Positions 18,759 through 36,901 of a stretch of 64,000 nucleotides of DNA are shown piece by piece (the stretch's first letter is position 1; each line of letters begins with the position of its first letter). The DNA is from Succinivibrio dextrinosolvens (lineage in GTDB: Bacteria > Pseudomonadota > Gammaproteobacteria > Enterobacterales > Succinivibrionaceae): NCBI RefSeq assembly GCF_011065405.1, contig NZ_CP047056.1:766747-830746 (forward strand), in the 5' to 3' direction. The notes under the pieces are model-generated. The model had not been told where the DNA came from. It saw nothing but the letters and a program-made list of their open reading frames with translations, and ran no database searches. A program made the position numbers and the translations under genes.

Positions 18759-20441
18759 TTATTTCTCCTCACCATCTTTCAATAGAGCCAGATAACGTTC
18801 TACTCTTACAGAGTAACTGCGTTCATCATGATAATTAGGTAGAAGATGTGCCAGTTCCAGCCAGTCTCCCACATAGGTTGCCTCTACACTCTTACCTGCA
18901 ATCTCCTTATGAACCGTTGTAAAGAAGGAGTTATCAGGGAATACCGACTTAAACTCATCAGGAGACATCAGATTTGAGTCTTTGCGTCCGCCAAGCTCTC
19001 TTCTAATATTGCGTTCAAGTGTTTCAAAGGCAGACCTGCTTTCATCCTTACCCTTTCTACACTGATTCAATGCAGGACGAACAGTTGAACGTGGTAATTT
19101 ATTCAGAACCATCAGTCCCTTATCCACAAAGTCATGCAGATTATTGTGACTTAAAATCAGAGGTTTTGCTGTCAGCATTGTCTTCTTGTCTGCAGTCTTT
19201 GCGATATGGTGGCGAATCAGTTCAAGATCGTTCTCAACCTCATTGGTAATCACAAGATAATCCAAAGAACTTGGTCTTACGGCTTCATCCTTGGTTAATT
19301 CCTTTGCATTCTTTAAAAGCTCTTCAGACAGATTAAAGGCTCTGATGAAAGGATAGCCCTTCTGGCAGATGACCATACCGGCACCCACAGATAGCTGAAT
19401 CTCCTTGTTGCTTAGCTTACAAACAGCTTCCTTCTCAAAGGTATTAACAAATCTGCTTATAAACAGCAGCGCAAGATCGGCTCTCATAACTATTGTTACA
19501 TCATCGCCGCCCTGAACTAAAGGACGGGCTGGGACAACAAGCTTATTCCTGCCTTTTTCCTGCCATACCTTTACCTCATACTCGTAGCTCATGATAGCCT
19601 TCAGACCTTCATCCATGGCTTTTCTTGTGGAGCTTTCTACAAGTTTTGACAGATCAGCCATAGCTTTGATACTGTCCTGAACATTGAGATTCTTATAATC
19701 ATCACTTTCAAGGAATGATCTGAACAGTTTTCCAAGATCATTACCGTCGATATGGATATAGGCAATCTTATCGCCGCTACCTGCAAGCTCCTCTATATCG
19801 TCTGTCCAGATAACCTTTACCTCTGAAGGCAGGACTGTCTCAAAACGCTGACGCAGACGTTCATCTGCAGCTTCAAGTAAATCTCTGCTCTGACGGGATT
19901 TTGAACAGACTGAAATGAAATCGTCACCGATTCTATCTACGGCAGGAAGACCATCCAGTCCGGCCATCTGACATAATGGCAGCATCGACATACCGGTATT
20001 CACAGGGGCATTGTTTCTAAGTTTTGTAATACCTTTCTGAGCAGAAGCACGACACTGTCTATAGCTATCCTTATCAGTCCATGTACAGTTATGCTCTTCA
20101 TCATTCAGAGCTCCGAACAGAGGAATACCTGGATAGTCAGAACTTATTTTAAAAATGAAATGACTGATAAATTTTTTTGCGATTTCTCTTGAAGAGAACA
20201 GAAGATGAATTTCACCTGCGTTACGCTGAAGGGCGAGAACTTTATTGCCTGTAGGTTCTGTAGCGTTCTGAGGTTCTATTAAGTCCAGATTTAATGCTTT
20301 ACATTCCCTTTCAAGGATCCCTTTGGAGAGATCTTCAATCAGTTGAGATCCTCCAATCATTTCTCGCAGTTTTCCGGTAGATAGAATATAGTTTTGAATT
20401 CCACCTACCTCGACGATAGCATAGGTAAGGTCGTTGGCCAT
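18759..20441 (-). CDS. cas10: Cas10 large subunit without HD domain, cyclase motif intact
   Basis: A 560-residue signature protein of type III CRISPR. The frame opens at 20462, but the ATG at 20441 has AGGAG five bases upstream and gives MANDLTYAIVEVGGIQNYIL, the usual first palm strand. There is no N-terminal HD nuclease domain: the protein begins directly in the first palm domain. The second palm has IHIDGNDLGKLF (about 230-241) and an intact GGDD (about 311-314), so synthesis of cyclic oligoadenylate is expected while Cas10 DNase activity is not. Csm6 and a CARF-sigma54 protein in the same island are candidate readers of the signal. First gene of the effector operon. Confidence 0.92.
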   Translation of the reverse strand: MANDLTYAIVEVGGIQNYILSTGKLREMIGGSQLIEDLSKGILERECKALNLDLIEPQNATEPTGNKVLALQRNAGEIHLLFSSREIAKKFISHFIFKISSDYPGIPLFGALNDEEHNCTWTDKDSYRQCRASAQKGITKLRNNAPVNTGMSMLPLCQMAGLDGLPAVDRIGDDFISVCSKSRQSRDLLEAADERLRQRFETVLPSEVKVIWTDDIEELAGSGDKIAYIHIDGNDLGKLFRSFLESDDYKNLNVQDSIKAMADLSKLVESSTRKAMDEGLKAIMSYEYEVKVWQEKGRNKLVVPARPLVQGGDDVTIVMRADLALLFISRFVNTFEKEAVCKLSNKEIQLSVGAGMVICQKGYPFIRAFNLSEELLKNAKELTKDEAVRPSSLDYLVITNEVENDLELIRHHIAKTADKKTMLTAKPLILSHNNLHDFVDKGLMVLNKLPRSTVRPALNQCRKGKDESRSAFETLERNIRRELGGRKDSNLMSPDEFKSVFPDNSFFTTVHKEIAGKSVEATYVGDWLELAHLLPNYHDERSYSVRVERYLALLKDGEEK

Positions 20442-20494
20442 TCTTACTCCTAAAGTTGTCAAAGTTTCTTTTTTTATTTCAGATCTATATTACG

Positions 20495-21987: not shown

Positions 21988-22260
21988 CTAACAGACAATC
22001 GTAATCCTTTTCTTCCCTGAATAAATTCTGGCATCCTCATAGCTTATCTTGGTGCAAGGCATAATAAGAACATTATCTTCTGCAGTAAGTTTCTCTGAAA
22101 ACATCATTTCAAGATGAACAAGCTTTTCACTGTTACCCTCGTAAAAGAAAACCGATTTCTGCAGATGAATGGCTATTTTCTTAAGTCTTCTGAAGAAATA
22201 ACCTCTTAGTCTGTTATCAGCTATGTCATAGCTAATGAGAAAACATTGCTCCATTTCCAA
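21988..22260 (-). CDS. cas2: Cas2
   Basis: A 90-residue Cas2 with the family opening CFLISYDIADNRLRGYFFRR (the conserved Asp is in YDI) and LQKSVFFYEG. It partners Cas1 in the spacer-integration complex. The reading frame overlaps the end of cas1 by 29 bases, so the two are coupled. An in-frame ATG two codons later is an equally plausible start. Confidence 0.9.
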   Translation of the reverse strand: MEMEQCFLISYDIADNRLRGYFFRRLKKIAIHLQKSVFFYEGNSEKLVHLEMMFSEKLTAEDNVLIMPCTKISYEDARIYSGKKRITIVC

Positions 22261-23299
22261 TACTCCAGGTTTGAAAGCTCATTTTATCCTGCAGCGACAT
22301 AACGTAGTTTTCTGCACAGTCCTCGATTATATCGTTAGAGGATTTCATTACCTTTTCAGATTTACTGCCATTACAGCAGTAAAATATTTTTACATCATTA
22401 AACATTTCCTCAAATATCCCTAGGATCTTGGGGAAAGCTGAACCAGATATGATTGAAATACTGTTTTCTTTGCAGGAGAAATCATCTGGTTTTATAATTT
22501 TCTTTCGAATAGCTCCTAGAACAGTAGTATCAACCAGAGCTCGAAACTGTTCCATTAGATCTGAAGACAGGGCTGCGTGACAACCTCTTGATATATGGTA
22601 AAAGCCAAGTCTTGGATTTAAACCTTTGGATTTTAATGCAGAAGTCAGTCGGTTTCGTAAAAGTGTATATCCCAAAGATAGTACTGCGTTAATGGAATCA
22701 GTAGCAGGATGCTTAATTCTTCCGGTCCATTCAAAGTCTTTTACAATACCGCTCCAAAGTGAAAAATAATGTTTTGCGGCTATTCCTTCAATCCCCCTCA
22801 GGGAATCCTTGCTATCCGCAGAATTTATCATCTGCATGAATTTTTTGTAATCAAAATCAGAGGATACTTTATCTTTTCTTCTTCTGATAATCTCATGGCA
22901 ATTATGAATTTTTGTTTTTACTATCGTCCTAGCAAAGACAAGAGAATTTAATGAATCCTTAAATTTTTCCTGAGATAAATAATAAGTCTTAATCTCATCA
23001 TTATCAGGTAAAAGCTGTCCTGTTGTCCTCCCGAATAAATCAAGAAAATCTACGGGTATTCTTTTAATCATCATGCGATGCAGAACCAGATAAGACAAAT
23101 TTGTGACTTTGCCAATCAGAACCATTCGCCTAATACAGTCTATATTTACCAGTTGACAGGTTCCATCTTCCTTCTCTATACAGATTTGATTGTCATTTTT
23201 CAAAGTTGCACTGATGGTTCTGCATGTTAAATATACTGTAACTTTAAGGTTAGATATGTAATCTGCCATTGAATATTTCTCTACACAATTAGATAACAT
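22232..23299 (-). CDS. cas1: Cas1 integrase
   Basis: A 355-residue Cas1. The metal-binding residues of the C-terminal helical domain are in place: Glu171 in GIEGIAAKHYF, His235 in GFYHISRGCHAAL, and Asp247/Glu250 in SDLMEQFRALVD. The N-terminal ~100 residues form the usual beta domain. AGGAGAG precedes the start at 23299. It is not fused to a reverse transcriptase. With Cas2 it should acquire spacers for the single array, now separated from it by an insertion sequence. Confidence 0.92.
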   Translation of the reverse strand: MLSNCVEKYSMADYISNLKVTVYLTCRTISATLKNDNQICIEKEDGTCQLVNIDCIRRMVLIGKVTNLSYLVLHRMMIKRIPVDFLDLFGRTTGQLLPDNDEIKTYYLSQEKFKDSLNSLVFARTIVKTKIHNCHEIIRRRKDKVSSDFDYKKFMQMINSADSKDSLRGIEGIAAKHYFSLWSGIVKDFEWTGRIKHPATDSINAVLSLGYTLLRNRLTSALKSKGLNPRLGFYHISRGCHAALSSDLMEQFRALVDTTVLGAIRKKIIKPDDFSCKENSISIISGSAFPKILGIFEEMFNDVKIFYCCNGSKSEKVMKSSNDIIEDCAENYVMSLQDKMSFQTWSIGNGAMFSH

Positions 23300-23371: not shown

Positions 23372-23509
23372 CTATGTTTTATCTTTTTCCTCTAATGCAT
23401 GAACTTCATGTGCATAGCACGTGAAACCTATCACAGTCCCAACAGCTTTAACAGTAGAAATAGAGATAGCAAAAATAGAGTCGAAAATAAAAAAAGGCAT
23501 AGAATCCAT
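23372..23509 (-). CDS. Candidate 45-residue small protein upstream of cas1
   Basis: An open frame of 45 codons beginning MDSMPFFIFDSIFAISISTV, hydrophobic through residue ~30 and then charged, ending EVHALEEKDKT. GAGG lies a suitable distance upstream of the ATG, and the frame is on the same strand as cas1, ending 72 bases before it. It could be a small membrane protein or merely the cas1 leader. No family recognised. Confidence 0.3.
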   Translation of the reverse strand: MDSMPFFIFDSIFAISISTVKAVGTVIGFTCYAHEVHALEEKDKT

Positions 23510-23531
23510 AGTAAAACCTCACAATAATTAA

Positions 23532-25366
23532 CCTAGGATAAATATAAAAGTAACACTATAGTCACATTTTATCAATAACTTTGCTTATTGATTGTTCTTT
23601 AACAGTAAAATGCCTAGATATTCCTGCTTTATATATATTATAATAGCACTATATAGTGTTATGTAATCTTTAAAACAAGGTGTTTTGTATGGCATTTATC
23701 CGAATTCAGAAATTAAAAAAGGATGAAAGTGGAAAAATTCTGTCTGGTTCTGCATCCATTATTGATGTGAATTATGATCCAAAAGCAAAATACCATGCGC
23801 AGCAAAGAGTTCGAGAAAAGCTTGGTAAGGTTATTGAACTCTACAGTAAACGCTGTGGTTTATTTCAATCACCAACTAGAGGTCTTGTTATCTATGATGC
23901 TGATACCGATAGATTTTCTTCTCCTCTGACCAGAGAGGCAGCTGAAGAGCAGTTTAATGACGAAAAGCTCATAGAGCAGATTTTTCCTTCTGCAGATGTA
24001 CATACTGTATTCGGAGACGGTTATCTAGTTGCTGAGGTATTGAAGAGTTCTGGATTATGGGATGTAATCTGTACCGCCTTTCCTGAAAAAGTTACACAGG
24101 AGAGATTATTCTGTCATCTAATTTACGGAATACTTCGTGATGGTTCCAGAATAAGCTGTGAAGATTTTATAGCAAAATCTTTTCTTTTCTACTGTGTACA
24201 GGACATTCCTTTATCGAGTCTAAAATCTGATACAAGATACTTTTCGGCTATGGGTGAAGATTCTGCAAGAATGGACTTCTTCAGAGCATACTGCGATTAC
24301 ATGAGAAAACAGAATCCATCTTTTGGCAAGGGCTGCTTTGTTGATTCCACTCCGCTTCCAAATAAAATTGATTCTCCTTTTAACGCTCTGTGTTCTCACG
24401 GTGTAGCTTCAACCTCTATACAGATGCGACTTGTAATGGTTCTTGATGAAGAAACACTGCAACCTATTTGGTACGACGTTATCCCTGGTAATATTTTAGA
24501 TATCAGTACACTAAAACTATCAGCAAAGACGTAGAGGTAAGTCTGGGTATTACAATCAACGGATATACTCTGGATGCAGGTTATGCATCTAAAGAGCTGA
24601 TTATGGCTTTTGAACTCCAGAAAGAACAGGAGCCTATTCCAGAAAAGAAGTATCTTGTAAGGATGCCTTCCAAAGAGGATATCCCTACAGGGAACTTTAT
24701 CAGGAGTTTAAAGAGCAGTTTAATCAGGCTAAATACAGTTTTGTCAGAGGAGGACATATATACTTTGGCAGAGCTGTAACCAAGATGATATTTGGTACGC
24801 CGGTTCGCTGCTATGTATATGTCGATAAGTACAATGCTTTAAAAGGTCATACTTCATATATGATGGAGCATCCTGAAGAATATGAGGCATTAACAAATCG
24901 GGAAAAGAACTGGTACCAGGCTAAATTCGGCTATTTTGTACTTATAGCAAATTACCTAAAAACACCATCTCAGATGCTTGATGAATACTTTTGCAGAACC
25001 AATATTGAAACCGCTTTTAAGACGGATAAAGAGTACCTGAAGCTACTGCCTTTATGTAAATGGAGTGATTTGACTGTAAGAGGAAAAATCCTCAGTGATG
25101 TTATAGATTCCATCTTAAGAAGCAAAATTCAGCAGATAAGAAAAGGCTCAGTATACTCATTGTCTGCAATGATTGGTAAATGTCAGTCACTAATGTGTTT
25201 CCGAGACAAAAACTCTGAGCAGGTATATGTTGAGGTGGCAAACAAGCAGGTTAGGACCTGCTATGAGGAATTGGGAGTAACAGTACCTCAAAAGATCGAT
25301 CTGAAATCATATATGACCGATCTTTTTGATCAAAATTTATAGTGTTACTTTTGTGTTTATCTTAGG
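23532..25366 (+). mobile_element. IS4/IS1634-type insertion sequence, copy 1
   Basis: A 1835-base element with 29-base terminal inverted repeats (left begins CCTAGGATAAA, right ends TTTATCTTAGG; three mismatches between ends) and a 5-base target duplication ATTAA at 23527-23531 and 25367-25371. It is nearly identical to the copy at 30305-32140 but lacks one A in a short run near 24672. It lies between cas1 and the array leader. Confidence 0.93.
23689..25342 (+). pseudogene. DDE transposase of IS copy 1, two frame breaks
   Basis: IS4-superfamily DDE transposase. The first frame (from the ATG at 23689, with AAGG upstream) carries the first catalytic Asp in CFVDSTPLPN and stops at 24532-24534. 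The continuation in the -1 frame carries the second Asp in LDAGYASKEL and the Glu in RTNIETAFKTDK. The first frame change, at ACTAAAAC near 24510-24517, is shared with copy 2 and may be programmed. A second break, a missing A near 24672 relative to copy 2, is unique to this copy and should inactivate it. Confidence 0.8.
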
Positions 25367-25831
25367 ATTAATAGATATATCTATAAAAGCAATAGTAATA
25401 CCAACTTTTTACTTATTGTTTTTAAAGGAAATATTTTTTGTTAGCTATCTTAAACTATTATTTAAGATATGATTTTATGAATTTTCATAAATATTGATTC
25501 AATCTAAAAAAAGTAACAAATCATCCGCAAAATTTATCAACAAAGAAATGTCATATATTTCAGTAGGCTTTAAAAATCTAATTTAAGCGGATGATAAAAA
25601 GAGAAAAATCAACGAAGGAAGTAATTCGTCAAATCACTTGTATTTATGGGACTAGACAGTCATTTTTTTTAATTTAAAGTATCCAATCACTCGCAAATAT
25701 GTCCAGATAATAGCTCTGAAGATGTTTGAAGAAGATTTTCCAAGAAAAAAAGCAGAAATTCATAATTAAATGCTGATATTCGCAAAAATCGCAAAAAAAA
25801 TGTTATGAATTCAATAGCTATTTAGGGTAAT
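25367..25831 (+). promoter_or_regulatory. Probable CRISPR leader
   Basis: About 465 AT-rich bases without a gene between the IS end and the first repeat. The repeats next to it are perfect while the far end of the array is degenerate, so this is the leader side and should hold the array promoter and the integration site for new spacers. Only the last ~150 bases are likely to be needed. Confidence 0.65.
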
Positions 25832-27272
25832 ATTGCAATGAGCCTCAGAAATGAGGTAGTTACGACCAAATGTCATCAGTAGATGCTCTATAACCACACT
25901 ATTGCAATGAGCCTCAGAAATGAGGTAGTTACGACTAACCACGGCCATAGCCTGGTCTATTGGTTGAATTGCAATGAGCCTCAGAAATGAGGTAGTTACG
26001 ACTAACCACGGCCATAGCCTGGTCTATTGGTTGAATTGCAATGAGCCTCAGAAATGAGGTAGTTACGACGGTAACGACTGCGCCCTCCGGTAGAACGTCT
26101 AAAATTGCAATGAGCCTCAGAAATGAGGTAGTTACGACTCAACTCGGTAGGCTCTTCTGTCAGTTGCAAATTGCAATGAGCCTCAGAAATGAGGTAGTTA
26201 CGACAATCATGTTCTGAACAGCCTTAATGCGGTTTCATTGCAATGAGCCTCAGAAATGAGGTAGTTACGACTGAGGCACGTAACTCATCAAGAGTAACCT
26301 TATATTGCAATGAGCCTCAGAAATGAGGTAGTTACGACATGCTGTCTCTCTTTAACAAAATTCAGGTCTAATTGCATTGAGCCTCAGAAATGAGGTAGTT
26401 ACGACTTACTCTGTAGAGTTTCATAAATATCTCCTAATTGCAATGAGCCTCAGAAATGAGGTAGTTACGACTCCTCACATTCCATGTTTGGTTTGCAGTT
26501 AAGCATTGCAATGAGCCTCAGAAATGAGGTAGTTACGACCAATCTTCTCCGTTAGGAGTGTACATACTCAATTGCAATGAGCCTCAGAAATGAGGTAGTT
26601 ACGACTCCTCACATTCCATGTTTGGTTTGCAGTTAAGCATTGCAATGAGCCTCAGAAATGAGGTAGTTACGACCAATCTTCTCCGTTAGGAGTGTACATA
26701 CTCAATTGCAATGAGCCTCAGAAATGAGGTAGTTACGACTATACATGGATGTCTCATCTAAGTGAGCTACTATTGCAATGAGCCTCAGAAATGAGGTAGT
26801 TACGACATATAAATTGTGTCCTTCTCCAGAGTCTCAGGATTGCAATGAGTCTCAGAAATGAGGTAGTTACGACTCTTCAACCCAGTATGTATTGGAACCC
26901 ACTCGGATTGCAATGAGCCTCAGAAATGAGGTAGTTACGACGTCTGGTGGCGAACAATTATCCCCTTTTTGATTGCAATGAGCCTCAGAAATGAGGTAGT
27001 TACGACTTACCACAGGTATTGAAATACATTGAAGTAAAATTGCAATGAGCCTCAGAAATGAGGTAGTTACGACAATGCACTGTATCACTTTCCTAATGAG
27101 TCTTATTGCAATGAGCCTCAGAAATGAGGTAGTTACGACAATGCACTGTATCGCTTTCCTAATGAGTCCTATTGCAATGAGCCTCAGAAATGAGGTAGTT
27201 ACGACCTCCTGTAAGTTGCATCAGCTCAAACAGATCTATTGCAATTAGCCCCAGGAATGAGGTATTTACAAT
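25832..27272 (+). CRISPR. CRISPR array, 22 repeats of 35 bp, 21 spacers
   Basis: The 35-base repeat begins ATTGCAATGAG, contains the hairpin CCTCA-GAAA-TGAGG and ends TAGTTACGAC. Spacers are 30-34 bases. Repeat starts are 25832, 25901, 25968, 26035, 26104, 26170, 26237, 26304, 26371, 26437, 26505, 26571, 26639, 26705, 26772, 26839, 26907, 26972, 27039, 27105, 27171 and 27238. The repeats at 26371 and 26839 have one substitution each; the last has six, marking the distal end and plus-strand transcription. Cleavage by Cas6 just after the hairpin would leave the 8-base tag GTTACGAC. Several spacers are duplicated: 2=3, 10=12, 11=13, and 19 is close to 20. Confidence 0.98.
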
Positions 27273-28026
27273 GCTTGGTTTGTGACTATCTTTCTTTTAT
27301 TATCCTTTCCATTTTTGTTTAGTATTATTGAATATTTGGGAAGAAAATCTGTTGTAGCTTAATAGATGGAGATTGGAGAGAACAGTGATTTGATGTTCTT
27401 CATTCTGATAAAACATTACTTTTTACCCTGCTTCAACAAGATAAAGATCTGTCTAAGTTCAAAACACAATTCCAGAAAGTGAATCCGCTTTTATTATTAT
27501 TACTATTTTTTATGAAATTTAATAACACTATTACAGCCAGAATTATTGCTAACTATCTGAAATTAAAAGATAACTATAAAAGAATATCATTCTTGGCACA
27601 GCAATTGCTATTTATAAACTATCAGTTTTAAAGGAGTAGCAGATATATGTGATTTAACGGTAACCGAAAATGGATCTGAAGTTGGAACCGAAAAAAGAAG
27701 GGACAGTGAAAGACTTCACGATAAGGGCTCAGCTACATTTCCATCAGAATCGCTCTAAGGCCTAGCCTAAATGAGAAGATTGACCGATACCGTTTAATCG
27801 CTCAGACAATGTCAGTTTATAAATATTACACTCCTAAGTAATAAGTTCAGGGGGATAAAAAAAAGTAATTTCTAACTATATCCGTCTAGAGATCTGGGGT
27901 ATTTAAGGATAACTGATGGAAATATTGTGCAAGATCTCGCTAAAAAAAGTATATGAGTAGACTTGAATTTTCATTTAATATACGTCAATTGTGAAAACGC
28001 TTAATAACTATATAGGAAAAAAAAAC
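27273..28026. other. Gene-free region after the array
   Basis: About 750 bases with many stops on both strands. Around 27650-27765 a short open stretch could be a gene remnant, but I cannot name it. The promoter of the exported protein at 28027 should be at its right end. Confidence 0.4.
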
Positions 28027-28557
28027 ATGAAGAAATTATTAATCACCGCAGCTGGTGCACTAGCTTTAATTACCAATGTCGCAAACGCTGATCCAAAACC
28101 ATTAGGACTGGAAATCGGTAAAGCAACAATCAGTGACTTTGAACAGAAGTTTCCACAGGCAACCTACATTGACAATAACCTATATACTTCTGGAAGGATG
28201 TATAGCCTGAACAGTAGAGAGGTGGCGCTTGAAGGTTTACAAAAAGATGTTGTATTCATTTTCAATAGGGATGAATCTCTGGCAGGAGTTTTAATGACAT
28301 TCAATAAAGATAAATTCAATGAATTAAATGGCCAGCTAAAAAAGAAATACAAGAAAGTCATCAAGTCTGTTATCCCATTTGTTGGTAATAAACTGGTTAA
28401 ATACAAGGACGGAAATTCTGTTGTTGAGTTAAATGCTCCGCATCTAAGCTTTGAGATGGAATTAAGTTACCTGTCAGACAGCTTTATCAAGACTATAAAC
28501 GCTCAGATTCAGAAAAATGAAAATGCGAAAAAACAGCAGGAGAGCGAACTGTTATAG
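28027..28557 (+). CDS. Exported protein of unknown function
   Basis: A 176-residue protein with a clear signal peptide, MKKLLITAAGALALITNVANA followed by DPKPLG. The frame opens at 27991, but the ATG at 28027 gives the signal peptide directly. The mature part is about 155 residues, mixed alpha/beta, with a lysine-rich stretch (LKKKYKKVIKSV) and a charged C-terminal tail. The mature start GLEIGKATISDFEQKFP resembles the opening of several small periplasmic proteins whose function is unknown. Followed by two lipoprotein genes on the same strand. Confidence 0.7.
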   Translation: MKKLLITAAGALALITNVANADPKPLGLEIGKATISDFEQKFPQATYIDNNLYTSGRMYSLNSREVALEGLQKDVVFIFNRDESLAGVLMTFNKDKFNELNGQLKKKYKKVIKSVIPFVGNKLVKYKDGNSVVELNAPHLSFEMELSYLSDSFIKTINAQIQKNENAKKQQESELL

Positions 28558-28626
28558 CTTTCTACTGACGGTTCAGAATATTGTAAATAATAAATTTTAG
28601 GTAATTGTGAAAAAGGCATTCAATTG

Positions 28627-29337
28627 ATGAGTAAGAAAATCTTAATAACAGCCGCACTTGTAGCCACCTTAGAACTAACAGCCTGCTCAACTGGTTCTGC
28701 AGACAGATTTGGAACCGCATTAGGTGATATTAAGAAGCTGCAGCAGATTTACACCCTTAACTCTTCAGATATCAGCTCTGTACGTGAAGTTTTAGGCACA
28801 CCTAATTACTCTGCATCTACAGACTCTGGTAAAGATTTATATGTGTATACCTATAAGGTTAATTATCCATTTGAAGGATTAAGCAGTTTTAGCTGGTTCA
28901 ATACATCCATGCATAATAAAGACAATGTATTGAATAATGAAATTGAGGCTGTCCCAACAACGACAAAAATCCTTGCTCTATTAGTAGATAATAATGGCGT
29001 TGTAACTGATGACTACCGTTTTGGCTTTAAGTATATCTTCAGTAAGAAAGCTGCAGAGTCCAACAACAGTTATTGTATTACTGATTTAACTGAATCTGAA
29101 ATGACCGATTATGTGAATTTCTCTCAGTACGAAATCGAATCAGTTGCAGACAAGAATACACTGGCATCAACATTTAATGATGCTTTAAAGACAAGATTAG
29201 AACAACATTTTGGAGGACTTCATAATTTAAACAATCACGTTTCGATTTTAAAAGAGGATGGAGCTTCTGTAGCTTCCCGTCCTAAGATTTCAAAGCAGAC
29301 TTACTGTAATGAGATCACCTGTAATAAACAGTTTTGA
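28627..29337 (+). CDS. Lipoprotein with BamE/SmpA-like motif
   Basis: A 236-residue protein with a lipoprotein signal (MSKKILITAALVATLELTAC, lipobox LTAC), so it should be lipid-anchored. The frame has a TTG one codon before the ATG at 28627. The segment DISSVREVLGTPNYSAS soon after the signal resembles the VRxxLGxP motif of BamE/SmpA-type domains. A Cys pair near residues 168 and 226-231 may form disulfides. It is similar in layout to the following lipoprotein gene, and the two are likely paralogues. Confidence 0.7.
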   Translation: MSKKILITAALVATLELTACSTGSADRFGTALGDIKKLQQIYTLNSSDISSVREVLGTPNYSASTDSGKDLYVYTYKVNYPFEGLSSFSWFNTSMHNKDNVLNNEIEAVPTTTKILALLVDNNGVVTDDYRFGFKYIFSKKAAESNNSYCITDLTESEMTDYVNFSQYEIESVADKNTLASTFNDALKTRLEQHFGGLHNLNNHVSILKEDGASVASRPKISKQTYCNEITCNKQF

Positions 29338-29363
29338 TTTAGGTATTTTAAAGGAAATATATT

Positions 29364-30101
29364 ATGTTCAAGAAAATCGCTTTAGTTTTAGGTCTATTAG
29401 GCTCTGTTCTGATGTTTACAGGTTGTACTACTGCTAATACAACCCGTGACGATAAAATGCTGGATGTTTCTCGTGTTGAGAAGTTTGTAGCAAAAGGAAC
29501 TACTAATCTTTCTGAGGTTAGAGAACTGATTGGCACTCCTGGCATTACAGGAAAAACTATTGACGGCAAGGATTTTGTTGGTTTTGCTGTAGTTGGTAAG
29601 CAGAGTGGTGGAGAAGAGGCTGGTAAGTTTGCTGCATCAGTATTAACCTTTGGTATTGTTGATGATGACGAATCCAGATATACACAGAAAAATGTTTTCT
29701 TTGTGTTAGATGATAACAAGACTGTTCAGGATATTAAGTATGACGGATATGTTTACCTAAGTCAGAAAAACTTCACAGGCTTTGTAAGTTTATGCCAGAG
29801 AAGATTATCTGATGAAGAATTACGCAGCACAACCAATTACTCAAAGGATTACATTATTAACTCATGGAAAAAGTATGTAACAGAAGTTAAGCCTGCAGAT
29901 GTCGTAGCAGTTGCACAGAAAGAGAAAACCACAATTGATAAGCTAGATTATGATGATGTTGAATATCCTGATTTCGGTTTTCCTGCATATCTGCAGATAA
30001 GTGCTCATAACCTGTTCGGTGATTACACCAATGAAGAACTTAACAGCGTAAGTGGCCGACAGGATAAAGACGGCTCAAAGAAGGCTCTGTTAGGTCTATA
30101 A
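29364..30101 (+). CDS. Lipoprotein with BamE/SmpA-like motif, paralogue of the previous gene
   Basis: A 245-residue lipoprotein: signal MFKKIALVLGLLGSVLMFTGC with lipobox FTGC, then NLSEVRELIGTPGITGKTID, the same VRxxLGTP motif as the gene before it. The middle contains a strand-rich region and the C-terminal third is acidic. It starts 26 bases after the upstream stop and ends at a terminator, so the lipoprotein pair is probably an operon. BamE helps assemble outer-membrane proteins; whether these do is unknown, since they are much longer than BamE. Confidence 0.72.
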   Translation: MFKKIALVLGLLGSVLMFTGCTTANTTRDDKMLDVSRVEKFVAKGTTNLSEVRELIGTPGITGKTIDGKDFVGFAVVGKQSGGEEAGKFAASVLTFGIVDDDESRYTQKNVFFVLDDNKTVQDIKYDGYVYLSQKNFTGFVSLCQRRLSDEELRSTTNYSKDYIINSWKKYVTEVKPADVVAVAQKEKTTIDKLDYDDVEYPDFGFPAYLQISAHNLFGDYTNEELNSVSGRQDKDGSKKALLGL

Positions 30102-30159: not shown

Positions 30160-30304
30160 AAAAGGAAACATAAAATCCTCAAACAGCGTTGACTCTCTGA
30201 AAGCTCACAGCAATCTTAAAATATTCTTCCTTGCTAATTCATATGAATCATGGGAATATTAAAGATGATTCAGTCTTATTTAAGGAAAAAAAATAATCAA
30301 TAAG

Positions 30305-32140
30305 CCTAGGATAAATATAAAAGTAACACTATAGTCACATTTTATCAATAACTTTGCTTATTGATTGTTCTTTAACAGTAAAATGCCTAGATATTCCTGC
30401 TTTATATATATTATAATAGCACTATATAGTGTTATGTAATCTTTAAAACAAGGTGTTTTGTATGGCATTTATCCGAATTCAGAAATTAAAAAAGGATGAA
30501 AGTGGAAAAATTCTGTCTGGTTCTGCATCCATTATTGATGTGAATTATGATCCAAAAGCAAAATACCATGCGCAGCAAAGAGTTCGAGAAAAGCTTGGTA
30601 AGGTTATTGAACTCTACAGTAAACGCTGTGGTTTATTTCAATCACCAACTAGAGGTCTTGTTATCTATGATGCTGATACCGATAGATTTTCTTCTCCTCT
30701 GACCAGAGAGGCAGCTGAAGAGCAGTTTAATGACGAAAAGCTCATAGAGCAGATTTTTCCTTCTGCAGATGTACATACTGTATTCGGAGACGGTTATCTA
30801 GTTGCTGAGGTATTGAAGAGTTCTGGATTATGGGATGTAATCTGTACCGCCTTTCCTGAAAAAGTTACACAGGAGAGATTATTCTGTCATCTAATTTACG
30901 GAATACTTCGTGATGGTTCCAGAATAAGCTGTGAAGATTTTATAGCAAAATCTTTTCTTTTCTACTGTGTACAGGACATTCCTTTATCGAGTCTAAAATC
31001 TGATACAAGATACTTTTCGGCTATGGGTGAAGATTCTGCAAGAATGGACTTCTTCAGAGCATACTGCGATTACATGAGAAAACAGAATCCATCTTTTGGC
31101 AAGGGCTGCTTTGTTGATTCCACTCCGCTTCCAAATAAAATTGATTCTCCTTTTAACGCTCTGTGTTCTCACGGTGTAGCTTCAACCTCTATACAGATGC
31201 GACTTGTAATGGTTCTTGATGAAGAAACACTGCAACCTATTTGGTACGACGTTATCCCTGGTAATATTTTAGATATCAGTACACTAAAACTATCAGCAAA
31301 GACGTAGAGGTAAGTCTGGGTATTACAATCAACGGATATACTCTGGATGCAGGTTATGCATCTAAAGAGCTGATTATGGCTTTTGAACTCCAGAAAGAAC
31401 AGGAGCCTATTCCAGAAAAGAAGTATCTTGTAAGGATGCCTTCCAAAAGAGGATATCCCTACAGGGAACTTTATCAGGAGTTTAAAGAGCAGTTTAATCA
31501 GGCTAAATACAGTTTTGTCAGAGGAGGACATATATACTTTGGCAGAGCTGTAACCAAGATGATATTTGGTACGCCGGTTCGCTGCTATGTATATGTCGAT
31601 AAGTACAATGCTTTAAAAGGTCATACTTCATATATGATGGAGCATCCTGAAGAATATGAGGCATTAACAAATCGGGAAAAGAACTGGTACCAGGCTAAAT
31701 TCGGCTATTTTGTACTTATAGCAAATTACCTAAAAACACCATCTCAGATGCTTGATGAATACTTTTGCAGAACCAATATTGAAACCGCTTTTAAGACGGA
31801 TAAAGAGTACCTGAAGCTACTGCCTTTATGTAAATGGAGTGATTTGACTGTAAGAGGAAAAATCCTCAGTGATGTTATAGATTCCATCTTAAGAAGCAAA
31901 ATTCAGCAGATAAGAAAAGGCTCAGTATACTCATTGTCAGCAATGATTGGTAAATGTCAGTCACTAATGTGTTTCCGAGACAAAAACTCTGAGCAGGTAT
32001 ATGTTGAGGTGGCAAACAAGCAGGTTAGGACCTGCTATGAGGAATTGGGAGTAACAGTACCTCAAAAGATCGATCTGAAATCATATATGACCGATCTTTT
32101 TGATCAAAATTTATAGTGTTACTTTTGTGTTTATCTTAGG
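30305..32140 (+). mobile_element. IS4/IS1634-type insertion sequence, copy 2
   Basis: A 1836-base element with the same 29-base inverted ends as copy 1 and a different 5-base target duplication, ATAAG, at 30300-30304 and 32141-32145. It is in the same orientation as copy 1 and sits 58 bases before the csm6 start. One extra A and one substitution (near 31940) are the only differences from copy 1 that I noticed. Confidence 0.94.
30462..32116 (+). CDS. DDE transposase of IS copy 2, expressed only through a -1 frameshift
   Basis: First frame from the ATG at 30462 to a stop at 31305-31307, with the first catalytic Asp in CFVDSTPLPN. The second frame is open from 31265 to 32116, with the second Asp in LDAGYASKEL and Glu in RTNIETAFK. 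A -1 slip at CTA-AAA-C (31284-31290) would join them into one ~550-residue IS4-superfamily transposase reading through GNILDISTLK into SKDVEVSLGI. Both genomic copies share this arrangement, so it is either programmed frameshifting or a shared defect. Confidence 0.75.
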
Positions 32141-32198
32141 ATAAGTTAATTGCTTATTAAGTAAGCTAAAACATCATCGGATTTATTAGGATGTGAAA

Positions 32199-33629
32199 AT
32201 GTCAAAAAAAGTTTTATTTTCCCCTATAGGCGGAAACGATCCTATTTCTCAGAAAAACTGCTTTGATGGTTCTATGCTGCATATATGCAGACATTACAGA
32301 CCAGACATAGTATATCTGTATCTTTCAGCAGATATGCTAACCACTGAAGATAAAGATCACCGTTATACAGAATCACTCAAGCTTCTTTCAACAAAACTGA
32401 ATCAGCCTATTGAAGTAAAACTTATTACCAGACCAGAGCTGACAGATCCACATGACTTTAACTACTTCTTCGAAGACTTTAGAAACGAGATAAAAGCTAT
32501 AGTTTCATCACTGGATGAGGATGACAAGCTGCTGATCAATATTTCATCCGGAACTCCTGGGATGAAAAGCGCTCTGAACGTAATGTCCACATTAGGTGAG
32601 TTCAGATGCACATGTATTCAGATTCCTAATCCGGAAATAAAACGCACCTACAATGAAAATTATGACCTAAATACCCTTTGGGAATTAGATCCGGACAATG
32701 AAGATACAGCAAAAAACCGCAGCACTGTGGTTAAATGTCCTAATCTGCTCTTATTAAAGGGAGAACAGACTATAAAGTCCTTCCTAAGACAGTATGACTA
32801 TCATGCAGCATATTCTCTGGCAAAAGATCTTGAGAAGACTCACTCCAAGGAAGCTGTTGCAAGATATATTGATTATCTTGAGTTTGCAAAAGAACGCAGC
32901 GCTTTTAAGAATGTTAGTTCTTTAGAGCACAAATTAAAGGATGTCTCAGAACTGTTACCTATCTCGGGACTAAACAGAGCTGTATTTGAATATGCATTAC
33001 TGTGCGATTTAAAGTGGAAACGAGGAGAATTGTCTGACTTTGTCCGCTCATTATCGCCACTGATTCAGGAACTGTTTCTGAGAGTCGTGGATGAGAACAT
33101 TTACCCTGTTTCATTAAAGCTGATTAAGGATAAAAACGAACTAGTTCCTAGCAGGAAAAAAAGTAACAAGAAGGACAGAATTGAAGGAGACAGTCATGAA
33201 GTCTGGGATTTTGCCACAATGGAAATTCTTGCAGAACATGATGAAACTGTAAGGTCCATTCTTAATGTTTTTAAAAAATACTTTAAAAGAAATTTTTACT
33301 CTGAAGACAGATATACCTATGTTTCCTCTGAAAGCCTATATAGGATTATTGATGAATTAGATAAAGATAAAGAGCTGAGAAATGACGTCTACACACTGCG
33401 AAATGATGTCGAAAGCTCAGTCAGAAATCTTCTGGCTCACAAGATTGTCTACATTGACGAGGACTGGATTAAACGTTCCACCGGAAATCTGAATGAAGAG
33501 AAGATCATGAAGCTGATAAAGAAAGTCTTCCGTTACACAGATGTTAATGTAAAAGATGAGTACTGGGACTCATATGACAGAATGAATGATTTTATTATTG
33601 CCAAGATTGAAGGATTGAAAATCAGCTAA
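32199..33629 (+). CDS. csm6: Csm6-type CARF-HEPN ribonuclease
   Basis: A 476-residue ancillary effector. The N-terminal ~160 residues are a CARF domain: KVLFSPIGGNDPIS at the start and the ring-nucleotide-binding motif ISSGTPGMKSALNV near residues 116-129. The C-terminal part is HEPN, with the catalytic R-x4-H as Arg409/His414 in VRNLLAHKI. Proteins of this architecture cut RNA non-specifically when cyclic oligoadenylate made by Cas10 binds the CARF dimer. The frame opens with GTG at 32193, but the ATG at 32199 with AGGA upstream is preferred. IS copy 2 lies immediately upstream and may have changed its promoter. Confidence 0.9.
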   Translation: MSKKVLFSPIGGNDPISQKNCFDGSMLHICRHYRPDIVYLYLSADMLTTEDKDHRYTESLKLLSTKLNQPIEVKLITRPELTDPHDFNYFFEDFRNEIKAIVSSLDEDDKLLINISSGTPGMKSALNVMSTLGEFRCTCIQIPNPEIKRTYNENYDLNTLWELDPDNEDTAKNRSTVVKCPNLLLLKGEQTIKSFLRQYDYHAAYSLAKDLEKTHSKEAVARYIDYLEFAKERSAFKNVSSLEHKLKDVSELLPISGLNRAVFEYALLCDLKWKRGELSDFVRSLSPLIQELFLRVVDENIYPVSLKLIKDKNELVPSRKKSNKKDRIEGDSHEVWDFATMEILAEHDETVRSILNVFKKYFKRNFYSEDRYTYVSSESLYRIIDELDKDKELRNDVYTLRNDVESSVRNLLAHKIVYIDEDWIKRSTGNLNEEKIMKLIKKVFRYTDVNVKDEYWDSYDRMNDFIIAKIEGLKIS

Positions 33630-33832: not shown

Positions 33833-35386
33833 ATGACAGAAGCAGAATCAGATTTGCCTATATACGTAAGCTGGATTGGTACAACAGATATTTACTGTAT
33901 GGAATCCTGGAGAGTAACAGAAGGGCTTGATCCTGCTCCTGACAACTCCAGCAGACTCACCGTTCCTTTTAAAGAAGAACCCGGACTGAACGGACCAATA
34001 AGAACCTTCACAGACAACAAAAAATTCTCAAAAATTTATCTTCTGTCCAGCAAAGAATACGAATCTATTTCCTCTCAGGTAAAAGACTGGATCTGCCGAG
34101 GAACTAAAAGTAAATGTCAGATTATCAACACACCAGTTGAAGATCCAACCTCTTATGATGAGGTATACAAGGCTTTGGATAAATTTTTATCCAAATACTG
34201 GAGTGCGGATACTGCTTCACGATTTGTATTTAATTTAACGCCAGGAACTCCTGCCATGCAGGCTATCCTCTTCTACATGTCTCAGGTGAGGTATTCAGGA
34301 GGAAAAACATATCGCACCGTTCCCCAAAAATATGCCAGGAACAATAAACAGATCCTTGAGGTAACAGCTCCTTTCAGCTTAAAACCGGATTTATATCTGA
34401 ATACCCAGACAGAATGTCCACAGTCTGATGAAATTGAAAAAGTAATAGAGCTATATGCCCCAGTAAAAGCAATCAATATTCTGCTGTTAGGTGAAAGCGG
34501 TGTAGGTAAGTCATCTGCAGCAGAAAAGATCCATTACCGCTGCGGAGGAAAGAAGGATAACTTTATTACAGCAAACTGTGCAGAGCTTGCCGCAGGTGAT
34601 GCCAATATGTTCAGAGCAGAACTGTTTGGAGCAAAGAAAGGATCTTTTACAGGCTGTACTGAAGATAAGACAGGATTATTTGAACAGGCTCAGAACGGAA
34701 CAATCTTTCTAGATGAAGTTGCAGAGATTCCTTTACCAAGTCAATCGGTACTTTTACGTGCTCTTCAGAATAAAGAAATTATGAGCATCGGCAGTAAAAA
34801 AGAGGTCAGACTGAATAATGTCAGAGTTATATCGGCAACCAATCATAATCTCCTTGAGGATGTAAAAAACGGAAAATTCAGAGAGGATCTGTATTATCGA
34901 CTGGCAATGTGCTCTATCACTCTGCCTAATCTTAGAGAAATAGCCTGTACTAACAGAGAGTATTTTAGACAACTGGTTACGACCATTTTGAACGATCTTA
35001 AAAAAGAAGACCCTAAGCTCAAAGACACAGATTTTAAACTGACTCAGGATGCCTGGGACTGTCTTTTGAGCAGCCAGTGGCCAGGTAATATCAGACAGTT
35101 GCGACATGTGCTGCTGTTATCTACTGTATATGCGTTAAATACAGGTAAATCCGAGATCAATGGTAAGATTATCTCCTTACACCTCTCTAAAGTAACCACA
35201 GTATCTTCCAGTAGTTCACCGGCAGATGATTTTATTCCTAATGATCTTAATCAGTGGCTTGCAGAGCAGAAAGACAAGATTATAAAAAACGCCTTGAAAT
35301 TAACCAGAGATAATACTTCAAAAGCAGCGAAGATACTGGGAATGAATGAGCAGACACTATACTCTTATCTGAAAAAGGCTAAGTAA
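33833..35386 (+). CDS. CARF-domain sigma54-dependent transcription activator (RtcR-like)
   Basis: A 517-residue three-part regulator. Residues 1-~190 are a CARF-like sensor with VFNLTPGTPAMQAILFYMS (about 133-151), the same GTPxM motif seen in the neighbouring Csm6. Residues ~205-440 are a sigma54 AAA+ domain: Walker A GESGVGKS (220-227), the sigma54-contact loop GSFTGC (270-275, consensus GAFTGA), Walker B GTIFLDE (289-295) and WPGNIRQLRHVL (416-427). Residues ~484-513 are a Fis-type helix-turn-helix. Domain order is that of RtcR, whose CARF binds RNA-derived ligands, but no rtcA/rtcB genes are here. Next to Csm6 and a cyclase-competent Cas10, it is probably switched by cyclic oligoadenylate. 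Targets are unknown. Confidence 0.85.
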   Translation: MTEAESDLPIYVSWIGTTDIYCMESWRVTEGLDPAPDNSSRLTVPFKEEPGLNGPIRTFTDNKKFSKIYLLSSKEYESISSQVKDWICRGTKSKCQIINTPVEDPTSYDEVYKALDKFLSKYWSADTASRFVFNLTPGTPAMQAILFYMSQVRYSGGKTYRTVPQKYARNNKQILEVTAPFSLKPDLYLNTQTECPQSDEIEKVIELYAPVKAINILLLGESGVGKSSAAEKIHYRCGGKKDNFITANCAELAAGDANMFRAELFGAKKGSFTGCTEDKTGLFEQAQNGTIFLDEVAEIPLPSQSVLLRALQNKEIMSIGSKKEVRLNNVRVISATNHNLLEDVKNGKFREDLYYRLAMCSITLPNLREIACTNREYFRQLVTTILNDLKKEDPKLKDTDFKLTQDAWDCLLSSQWPGNIRQLRHVLLLSTVYALNTGKSEINGKIISLHLSKVTTVSSSSSPADDFIPNDLNQWLAEQKDKIIKNALKLTRDNTSKAAKILGMNEQTLYSYLKKAK

Positions 35387-35584: not shown

Positions 35585-36448
35585 TTACCCTCTACTAGAC
35601 TGCCATATTGTAAAAACAAAGGAAAATAGAGTTGATAAAGTTGCAACAATAGATAAATACAGCATTAAATTGTTTAGCCTGTCTATTTTCTTGCTGTTTT
35701 CCAATCTGGATATTTCTCTTAACTTTTCTTCCATCTCTCTGACAGAATCTTCTATACCGAAATGAGTATATAAATCCTCCCACATAAAAAACAGTTCTAT
35801 TACACGATTTGTCTGAAGAGGCTTTCTATAAAAGTAACGCGTTTTCCAATCCTGCATTTCACTATAGGTTTTAATCGCAAGTTTTGGATTAGCTGTAATT
35901 CGCCTTACGAACTCATCAAGCTTATAGACATAGGCATTAGCCAGAATATAAATCAGAGCAAGTCTACAGCTGGAGCATTCAATAATTGGAGCAATCTGAG
36001 AGATTATCAGTTCCTGATTGTTAACAATAAGATTAGAACACTTTCTCTGGACCTGAGGAGAATTCCTATCACAAGTTACCTGACTAACAATATTCTTTTT
36101 AATCTCTAGCAACTTAGATTTATTCTGAAATCTCTCGTCAGAATCACTCTCCCTAAAGACTTCAAGATTATTATCCTGATTTCTTCTAACAGAATATTTA
36201 AGTCCGAATAGTTTTATTAACAGAACATCCCAGTTTCCATAAATTGAATCATCCTCAAAATTAGGCAATTCCTGATTATTCTTTACGACAGATACAAAAA
36301 ATTCACTATAAAGTGCATCCTTAAAAAAGCGAATCATCCATTTTTTTGTTTGACCGTTCAAAAACCAGCATTCGTGAACAGATCTCCAGGAGTGTGGTTC
36401 ATATTCACCGTTCAAAAAATCTTTTTCAATGTTTTTACTATCTGACAT
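35585..36448 (-). CDS. Unknown protein with C-terminal membrane anchor
   Basis: A 287-residue protein, convergent with the CARF-sigma54 gene. Residues 1-~225 are soluble and rich in aromatic residues (for example KKWMIRFFKDALYSEFFVSV). A predicted coiled coil (MEEKLREISRLENSKKIDRL) leads into a single transmembrane helix near the end (LYLSIVATLSTLFSFVFTIW). The layout faintly recalls CorA-like or other membrane effectors found with type III CRISPR, but the CorA GMN motif is absent and I recognise no family. The frame opens with TTG at 36493; the ATG at 36448 has GGA upstream. Its place at the edge of the island suggests, but does not show, a defence role. Confidence 0.6.
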   Translation of the reverse strand: MSDSKNIEKDFLNGEYEPHSWRSVHECWFLNGQTKKWMIRFFKDALYSEFFVSVVKNNQELPNFEDDSIYGNWDVLLIKLFGLKYSVRRNQDNNLEVFRESDSDERFQNKSKLLEIKKNIVSQVTCDRNSPQVQRKCSNLIVNNQELIISQIAPIIECSSCRLALIYILANAYVYKLDEFVRRITANPKLAIKTYSEMQDWKTRYFYRKPLQTNRVIELFFMWEDLYTHFGIEDSVREMEEKLREISRLENSKKIDRLNNLMLYLSIVATLSTLFSFVFTIWQSSRG

Positions 36449-36901
36449 ACGGAAATCCAAAGGGAAAAAAGAGTATATTTGAGGTATAGCCAATAGTATA
36501 GTATTTTTTTCTTAATACCGTAAACCACGAAAAAAAAAGCGCACAGGTCTGACATATTCTTGAGACTCATCACAAATCAGACATTTTTTATAAAAATTAT
36601 TTCTCAAAGATAACAGAAACAAATCAGTCATTCTCAATTCTCACTAAATTCCACATGACGACTCACCACTGCTAGAGACGGTTTGTATAATACATTGTCT
36701 GTCATTTGACCGATTTCAGTCAGACAGAATAACTATCCTCCATATTTCAGTCAGAAAAATGATTAAACAAAACCGCATAAACATCACTTATCACATTTAT
36801 TCACAAGTATTAAAAAAAAACTAAGATATACTTAAAGTAGATTTAAATCAGTCAATATAACTATATATAACCATCAATCAAACAAACATATCGGAGTTTT
36901 T
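36449..36901. promoter_or_regulatory. Divergent intergenic region with a direct repeat
   Basis: About 450 bases between the membrane-anchored protein and the kinase pseudogene. ATTTCAGTCAGA occurs twice (36713-36724 and 36744-36755), 31 bases apart, with a -10-like TATAAT at 36686-36691 nearby. These may be regulator sites for the downstream acid-sugar operon. Confidence 0.4.

Follow-up and report, generated by a model that had tools for sequence, protein, structure and literature searches.

In the genome of Succinivibrio dextrinosolvens, a predicted sigma54-dependent transcriptional activator with a CARF-type sensor is encoded directly downstream of a csm6 gene, in a stretch that also contains a type III CRISPR system. 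The locus raises the question of which genes this activator controls and to what signal it responds. Here, we analyzed the surrounding 64,000 nucleotides (contig NZ_CP047056.1, positions 766,747 to 830,746; hereafter the window), the whole genome and related genomes. On the basis of sequence, the protein is probably a sigma54 enhancer-binding activator that was recruited to type III immunity and drives a cas1-cas2-csm6-cas10 regulon upon a signal made by the type III system. A preliminary description of the window had proposed that cyclic oligoadenylate (cOA) made by Cas10 triggers sigma54 transcription. The transcriptional arm is supported below, at the level of sequence, by two loci, a predicted regulon and co-occurrence with Cas10, whereas cOA as the direct ligand did not find support.

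Domain architecture of the activator

The activator and its upstream neighbor are:

33833-35386, plus strand: CARF-sigma54 AAA+-HTH activator, copy 1 (517 amino acids, ATG start; PADLOC RtcR_PspF2)
32193-33629, plus strand: Csm6 (CARF-HEPN, RNLLAH; TIGR02672 375 bits, cut-off 150), directly upstream of the activator

The domain order given in the preliminary description was confirmed by Pfam, which placed an RtcR N-terminal domain at residues 65-171 (1.1e-8), Sigma54_activat at residues 199-362 (1.1e-51) and HTH_8, a Fis-type helix-turn-helix (HTH), at residues 482-515 (4.2e-5), and by PADLOC, whose RtcR_PspF2--CARF_AAA_HTH profile was matched over its full length (residues 11-516; profile positions 4-478 of 481; 2.4e-99). 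We take the name RtcR_PspF2 to come from the 2020 CARF classification. Both the Walker A (GESGVGKS) and Walker B (DEVAEIP) motifs were present in the alignment, and sigma54 itself is encoded in the genome (rpoN; PF04552, 1.3e-66). The adjacent open reading frame (ORF) also proved to be Csm6, as had been claimed. With the Csm6 CARF profile of Pfam, residues 94-152 of the activator scored 26.6 bits (5.1e-6; cut-off 27.5), and the score was 29.2 bits in the genome search; the CARF motif NLTPGTPAMQAI occupies residues 134-145, and the Csm6 of the window carries the motif ISSGTPGMKSAL. The structure prediction that had been suggested as a check was made for residues 1-199 (AlphaFold; mean predicted local distance difference test score of 85.3). 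The best PDB matches of this model were Csm6, then Card1, Can2, Cad1, Cam1 and other CARF proteins, with 41 structural matches at E <= 0.001. According to the model the activator belongs to the CARF fold, with Csm6 closest, at modest TM-scores (0.37-0.56 by query).

The same CARF-AAA+-HTH order is found in Escherichia coli RtcR, which is likewise sigma54 dependent and has a glutamine at the CARF lysine position; moreover, rtcR is divergent from rtcBA, as activator copy 2 (see below) is from a predicted target promoter. The CARF domain of the activator was found in 9 of 56 genomes of the family (the carriers), and RtcB was present in five of these nine versus 10 of the 47 other family genomes (p 0.048). 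Together with the RtcR N-terminal match, such likenesses would speak for an ordinary RtcR belonging to an RNA-repair system. In contrast, the activator is 22% identical to E. coli RtcR, it scored 232.5 bits with the NCBIfam RtcR equivalog NF038308 (curated cut-off 650), its predicted targets are cas genes and pif1, and an RtcB profile search of the whole genome gave no match, in agreement with the earlier claim that rtcB is missing. The equivalog score and the RtcB result contradict an ordinary RtcR for the window genome, and we consider this explanation extremely improbable.

Two activator copies in two type III loci

The genome is a single contig of 3,468,545 bp (99.45% complete by tool estimate) and holds a second activator gene:

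659770-661320 of the genome: activator copy 2, 89% identical to copy 1 (genome search)

Within the window, the type III genes and the gene convergent with the activator are:

22232-23299, minus strand: cas1 of the type III-D-like system (profile searches)
18759-20462, minus strand: cas10 with GGDD motif, 567 amino acids
12816-18756, minus strand: repeat-associated mysterious protein (RAMP) genes and one 152-amino-acid gene, type III-D-like effector
35585-36493, minus strand: protein X, 302 amino acids, with a hydrophobic segment at the C-terminus (by eye)

Copy 2 lies in a type III-A locus with the order array, cas1, cas2, csm6, csm1 (GGDD), csm2-5, a transposase-like gene, a Sel1 protein, the activator, Pif1 helicase, cas6, a second array and a protein X homolog (15111-15995 of locus L003; DNA match to the window at 15131-16008). 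Csm2-6, Cas1, Cas2, Cas6 and the searched part of Csm1 were all above the NCBIfam cut-offs. Between the two loci the DNA of the activator is 82% identical, that of protein X 81% and that of csm6 78%, and the effector complexes differ. Thus, the trio of activator, X and csm6 accompanies two different effector complexes. In the second locus these three genes are spread across some 18 kb, with csm6 ~10.5 kb upstream of the activator. The effector operon of the window (minus strand, about 12.8-23.3 kb) comprises cas1, cas2, cas6, cas10 and RAMP genes and is type III-D-like; its RAMP genes match Csx10-, Csx7- and TIGR03986-like profiles, the cut-off being passed by TIGR03986 only. Cas10 carries GGDD at both type III loci. 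A cyclase-competent type III system had been described as lying beside the activator: a cas10 with GGDD is indeed there, whereas the cas operon is not adjacent to csm6, since a CRISPR array, three small ORFs and two insertion sequence (IS) copies intervene. For protein X, no family match was found in profile searches, and BLAST did not find a homolog in the relatives' loci examined.

Predicted enhancer, promoters and target genes

The candidate enhancers (upstream activating sequences, UAS) and sigma54 sites of the window are:

25475-25490, minus strand: candidate UAS, exact palindrome, 71 bp upstream of the 25403-25388 site
25388-25403, minus strand: sigma54-like site TGGTATTACTATTGCT, directed toward the cas1 side of the type III-D-like system
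27510-27525, plus strand: candidate UAS with 1 mismatch; the gap to the 27594 site downstream is 68 bp
27594-27609, plus strand: sigma54 -24/-12 site TGGCACAGCAATTGCT, one of 10 exact TGGCAC-N5-TTGC

The palindrome TTATGA-N4-TCATAA first drew attention upstream of the promoters of cas1 and pif1, and position 27510 holds a degenerate copy of it. It occurs exactly at four places in the 3.47 Mb genome, three of them within the two activator loci, and with at most one mismatch at 33 places (17 for a reversed-pattern control). All five copies of this set that fall within the loci are followed by a suitably oriented sigma54-type site (score of at least 12.5), at gaps of 62, 64, 67, 68 and 71 bp, compared with 1 of 28 palindromes outside the loci (gap of 47 bp) and 10 of 603 random positions. 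The Fisher value was 2.5e-5 for loci versus elsewhere, where three of the five palindromes had been spotted by eye and the gap range set from those, and 0.007 for the two sites that came to light once the motif had been fixed. Beside the fourth exact palindrome (256922) there was no sigma54-type site (best score 9.2). It should be noted that the sigma54 consensus and the weights used for scoring were set by us and not fitted. Because the palindrome had been picked by eye, all 4096 such palindromes were tested at the same gap range: over 94 kb (window, L038 and L003; gap fixed at 62-71 bp), the TTATGA arm precedes 5 of 17 sigma54-type sites, whereas one other arm precedes two, ten precede one and the remainder none. 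The exact promoter sequence TGGCAC-N5-TTGC is found 10 times in the genome (reversed-pattern control, four), including two cases within the two loci, one 37 bp before the ATG of the III-A cas1 and the other at window position 27594. When these two cas1 starts are compared, the DNA alignment begins no earlier than the sigma54 site, and the palindrome still stands at 67 and 68 bp. Another exact sigma54 site (2688423), accompanied by a 10/12 enhancer-like word, was taken as chance; it follows the gene of another sigma54 activator and precedes sugar-kinase- and aldolase-like ORFs.

Further features needed to define the predicted targets are:

23372-23509, minus strand: 45-amino-acid hydrophobic ORF (prediction only), beyond the IS and before cas1
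23526-25368, no strand assigned: IS copy with inverted ends, 99.8% identical to the 30299-32142 copy
27647-27835, plus strand: decayed cas1 5' end, downstream of the 27594 site

The predicted targets are the III-A operon (cas1-cas2-csm6-csm1(cas10)-csm2-5); the pif1 helicase gene, with a sigma54-type site ~36 bp before its ATG; a hydrophobic ORF of 56 amino acids, oriented divergently to activator copy 2; within the window, the III-D-like side, served by the 25403-25388 site on the minus strand; and the decayed cas1 after the 27594 site, with three small ORFs further downstream. The IS at 23526-25368 now separates the 25403-25388 site from the 45-amino-acid ORF and cas1. The segment 27593-27835 aligns at 69% identity (E 1.6e-19) with the part of the III-A locus that holds the sigma54 site and the beginning of cas1. 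The target groups are presumably operons, and the two small hydrophobic ORFs presumably real genes.

This predicted palindrome-promoter regulon supports, at the sequence level, the view that type III CRISPR has a transcriptional arm that depends on sigma54. In the mechanism that we propose, the HTH would bind TTATGA-N4-TCATAA 62-71 bp upstream of sigma54 promoters, and the CARF domain would receive a signal made in type III interference, whereupon the block on the AAA+ domain would be lifted. The sigma54 RNA polymerase would then transcribe cas1-cas2-csm6-cas10-csm2-5, the Pif1 helicase and the small hydrophobic ORFs. Once firing, the CRISPR system would in this way amplify itself and turn on spacer acquisition, and phage detection may switch on more CRISPR immunity. 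From the location of the sites we infer that this activator, and not another sigma54 activator, uses them; it would bind and activate there, and its signal would stem from type III activity. We put forward more tentatively, as a proposal somewhat short of probable, that a type III second messenger drives a sigma54 positive-feedback regulon (cas1-cas2, Pif1, csm6 and cas10, with a single-stranded DNA-binding protein (SSB) in a relative), the recognition of phage RNA thereby both amplifying interference and opening a window for spacer acquisition.

Occurrence and context in related genomes

Near-full Cas10 matches were found in seven of the nine carriers versus 7 of the 47 other family genomes (one-sided p 4e-4) and, within the genus, in three of five carriers versus 1 of 14 others (p 0.037), statistics that ignore phylogeny and draw on many fragmented genomes. 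Homologs that always accompany rtcB and never cas10, which the preliminary description had named as the contrary outcome, are not what is seen. Cas10 was counted only if the match was near-full-profile and E<1e-6; G030 (9.6e-5, near-full profile, no Cas homolog beside it) was left out, and its inclusion would give 8/47. First counts of 8/9 and 12/47 (PF22335, E <= 1e-4) were rejected, as this profile has matches in E. coli too, and were narrowed because the weak-match loci (L140, L141 and L151-L156) were without homologs of the Cas proteins of the window genome. Partial PF22335 matches are probably typical of GGDEF proteins. Beyond the family, a metagenome-assembled genome (MAG) of Desulfovibrio (L121) encodes an activator 46% identical to ours beside homologs of all six III-D-like effector genes, and its Cas10 is 48% identical to that of the window. 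Both own copies and the Desulfovibrio one are encoded with type III cas genes, a trait of ancillary type III cOA effectors.

A broader distribution of the family bears on a different explanation, namely that the activator is a general defense-island regulator that answers some signal of infection or stress other than type III activity and stands among these defense genes by chance. A class-wide search with the PADLOC profile was swamped by other sigma54 activators (at least 313 of 369 genomes matched). Among the matches listed, six near-full-profile relatives (28-32% identical) were followed up: four precede type I restriction genes, two adjoin HerA-, mad8-, MkoA- or kinase-like defense matches, which were weaker, and BLAST with the Cas proteins of the window genome found none beside the six. 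Relatives within the family adjoin Drt2-like, AbiP2-like and type IIG restriction genes, and the RtcR-like family has been described as often restriction-linked and as atypical among CARF families in not neighboring cas genes (Makarova 2014; PMC4012209). However, in an unrooted tree of 21 proteins (excluding the relatives of G079, G075 and G077, L047-L049), 12 proteins from the family and Desulfovibrio, including all CRISPR-linked ones, split from the rest, the restriction-linked ones among them, with a support of 0.996; in addition, the predicted targets are cas genes, and an activator gene is present in both type III loci. Taken together, the tree split, the restriction neighbors and the published account suggest a CRISPR-linked branch of a restriction-linked family; the activator matches the full RtcR_PspF2 profile and is type III-linked. 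A general regulator placed there by chance appears unlikely.

Promoter-like sites were also found in relatives. In G012, the activator and an SSB gene are divergent, with a sigma54-like site 38 bp ahead of the latter, and in G007 such a site lies 40 bp upstream of a type III-D-like cas1; no significant copy of the TTATGA palindrome was found at either site, and the HTH helices differ. In G011 (L142), promoter and enhancer are the same in front of a closely similar type III-A operon, whose proteins are 78-100% identical. Seven cas1 starts were inspected in all, including two from non-carriers, G011 with a site and G025 without. The strong sigma54 site in G002 was not counted, because it precedes a flagellar-rod-like gene.

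Several observations weigh against a CRISPR-dedicated sigma54 activator, in addition to the manner in which the palindrome was chosen and the neglect of phylogeny mentioned above. The sigma54-contact loop is GSFTGC, not GAFTGA, in both own copies, whereas most relatives have GAYTGA, GSYTGA, GAFTGS and similar sequences (none in the G002 alignment row). At least three further sigma54 activators are encoded in the genome and could use the same sites. In the loci of other carriers no copy of the palindrome at one mismatch or fewer was detected, and the palindrome-like copy of G012 (8/12) is at a level seen in non-carriers too; the enhancer is established only in the window genome, with the same sequence in G011, and in the G011 assembly (210 contigs, 95% complete) the activator was not found. 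In the loci of genus g5 (G042, G046, G050 and G022), no sigma54 site scoring at least 13 precedes annotated cas genes, and the carriers G012 (score 11.2) and G022 (10.7) have a cas1 start without a strong site. Finally, the carriers G017 and G002 gave no near-full Cas10 match.

Some further contexts were noted. The carrier G002 (L046/L192) is 92% complete, and its activator is without a GAFTGA-type loop in the alignment. In G017 (L045) and G012 (L039), a CARF-sigma54 gene stands beside Pif1 and reverse-transcriptase defense genes (AbiP2-like, Drt2-like). In G042 (L041, 1966-8722) it is divergent from a YceG/trypsin-like protein and a 1050-amino-acid protein with Csx1-like CARF-HEPN matches. 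An IMG/VR contig filed as viral (L050, 9965-11584) encodes a CARF-sigma54 protein 31% identical, with neighbor ORFs of ~1000-1250 amino acids. In G050 (L136, 16140-16945), the contig of a type III operon also has an AIG1-like GTPase gene, which a sigma54-like site precedes by 41 bp.

Which signal is sensed

Two readings of the signal have to be weighed. In the first, the CARF domain is a direct receptor of cOA, whose binding alone lifts the AAA+ repression; the ligand would perhaps be cyclic hexaadenylate (cA6), because of the kind of Csm6 beside the activator, the best solved sequence relative of which is the cA6-binding Csm6 of Enterococcus italicus (6tug). In the second, cOA made by Cas10 activates Csm6, which cuts RNA, and the CARF domain senses fragments with 2',3'-cyclic phosphate ends, the ligand proposed for RtcR (PMC7790460, PMC9650030). 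A relay through a HEPN RNase has likewise been proposed for CoCoNuT-linked RtcR homologs (PMC11090510), and Csm6 cleavage could supply RNA ends for the activator.

The preliminary description had stated that the CARF motif of the activator matches that of Csm6. This holds for the shared GTP, whereas the lysine that follows in motif II of the window Csm6 (GTPGMK) is a glutamine in the activator (GTPAMQ), as in E. coli RtcR (GTHVAQ), and no lysine or arginine was found at this position in 17 aligned rows (14 distinct). A lysine or arginine after strand 4 is present in most CARF families and mostly missing in RtcR families (PMC4012209); thus, the glutamine does not exclude CARF membership. It does count against direct cOA sensing, and it is RtcR-like, as the relay would have it. 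In Thermus thermophilus Csm6, K137A abolishes binding of cyclic tetraadenylate (cA4) (PMC10897365). However, E. italicus Csm6 has a glutamate at this position (GTPQME) and still binds cA6 (PMC7101355), so the lost lysine argues against cA4 and not against every cOA. Gln116 of that protein, needed for the full cA6 response (PMC7101355), corresponds to an alanine in the activator, which is another point against direct sensing, whereas the strand-1 motif GTTD resembles GNTD of E. italicus Csm6 and not GTVLD of RtcR (by eye), which speaks for direct sensing and against the relay.

Further evidence is divided in a similar way. Direct sensing is favored by the structural matches to Csm6, Card1, Can2, Cad1 and Cam1, by the GGDD Cas10 at both loci and by the Cas10 of seven carriers; against it, E. 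coli RtcR showed very weak cOA binding and no activation by cOA (PMC9650030). The relay would account for csm6 and the activator traveling together: csm6 is upstream of both copies and also on the activator contig in G012. It is also in line with the near-full Cas10 match in only two of nine genomes that encode more distant relatives (six of nine if every match at E <= 0.001 is counted). On the other hand, E. coli RtcR requires RtcA and RtcB (PMC9650030), whereas the window genome has no RtcB match, and the window csm6 used as reference matched no Csm6 on the short contigs of carriers except G012, nor in L121. On balance, direct cOA sensing is plausible though not quite probable, the relay is a possibility of only slightly lower rank, and the two stand at about the same level.

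Comparison with known systems

Transcriptional outputs of CRISPR signaling have been described for other proteins. Csa3 is a CARF transcription factor tied to cas1/cas2 and DNA-repair genes, with reported cOA binding (PMC9704534, PMC10013973, PMC8699464); unlike the activator, with its sigma54 AAA+ domain and Fis-type HTH, it has a winged HTH without AAA+ or sigma54 and is often linked to type I-A. In the CalpL-CalpT-CalpS system a type III signal also leads to a sigma-factor response (PMC11229360), but a SAVED-Lon protease releases the sigma factor and a CARF enhancer-binding protein is not part of it. In the type III-E CASP-sigma system (Csx29-Csx30), binding motifs suggest positive autoregulation of defense genes including cas1 (PMC10028731), whereas the regulator, an ECF-like sigma factor, is bound to Csx30 until proteolysis releases it and is not a ligand-gated sigma54 activator. 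In these three systems, type III signaling is shown or suggested to extend to transcription, and for Csa3 and CASP-sigma also to cas1; none of them, as described, relies on a sigma54 enhancer-binding protein. A term search of the main text of the 2025 classification (PMC12669027) found neither RtcR nor sigma54, transcriptional regulators being mentioned there in general terms only. A literature search of titles, abstract starts and passages, with subscription papers and the 2020 CARF classification outside its scope, found no description of a CRISPR-linked CARF-sigma54 activator.

In our judgment, it is not settled how type III systems time adaptation. If the proposed mechanism is true, a sigma54 activator gated by a ligand, whose enhancer and promoter are defined and which has cas1-cas2-csm6-cas10 downstream, would be a solution unlike Csa3 or the sigma factors released by proteolysis, and it would show both the takeover of an RtcR/restriction-type regulator by CRISPR and which ligand is read by a CARF domain that lacks the lysine. 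Since sigma54 promoters are silent without their activator, the hypothesis is directly testable. As a separate observation, a Syntrophorhabdaceae MAG (L129, 4338-5768) encodes a Lon-type protease with a C-terminal CARF match slightly upstream of a Cas10 homolog.

Other features of the window

The region between the effector operon and csm6 also contains:

25832-27205, no strand assigned: CRISPR array, with one extra degenerate repeat to about 27272

Between this array and csm6 (27991-30101) are three small ORFs that look secreted or lipoprotein-like (by eye), with no convincing family match. The two IS copies are flanked by short repeats, ATTAA for the copy at 23526-25368 and ATAAG for the other (by eye).

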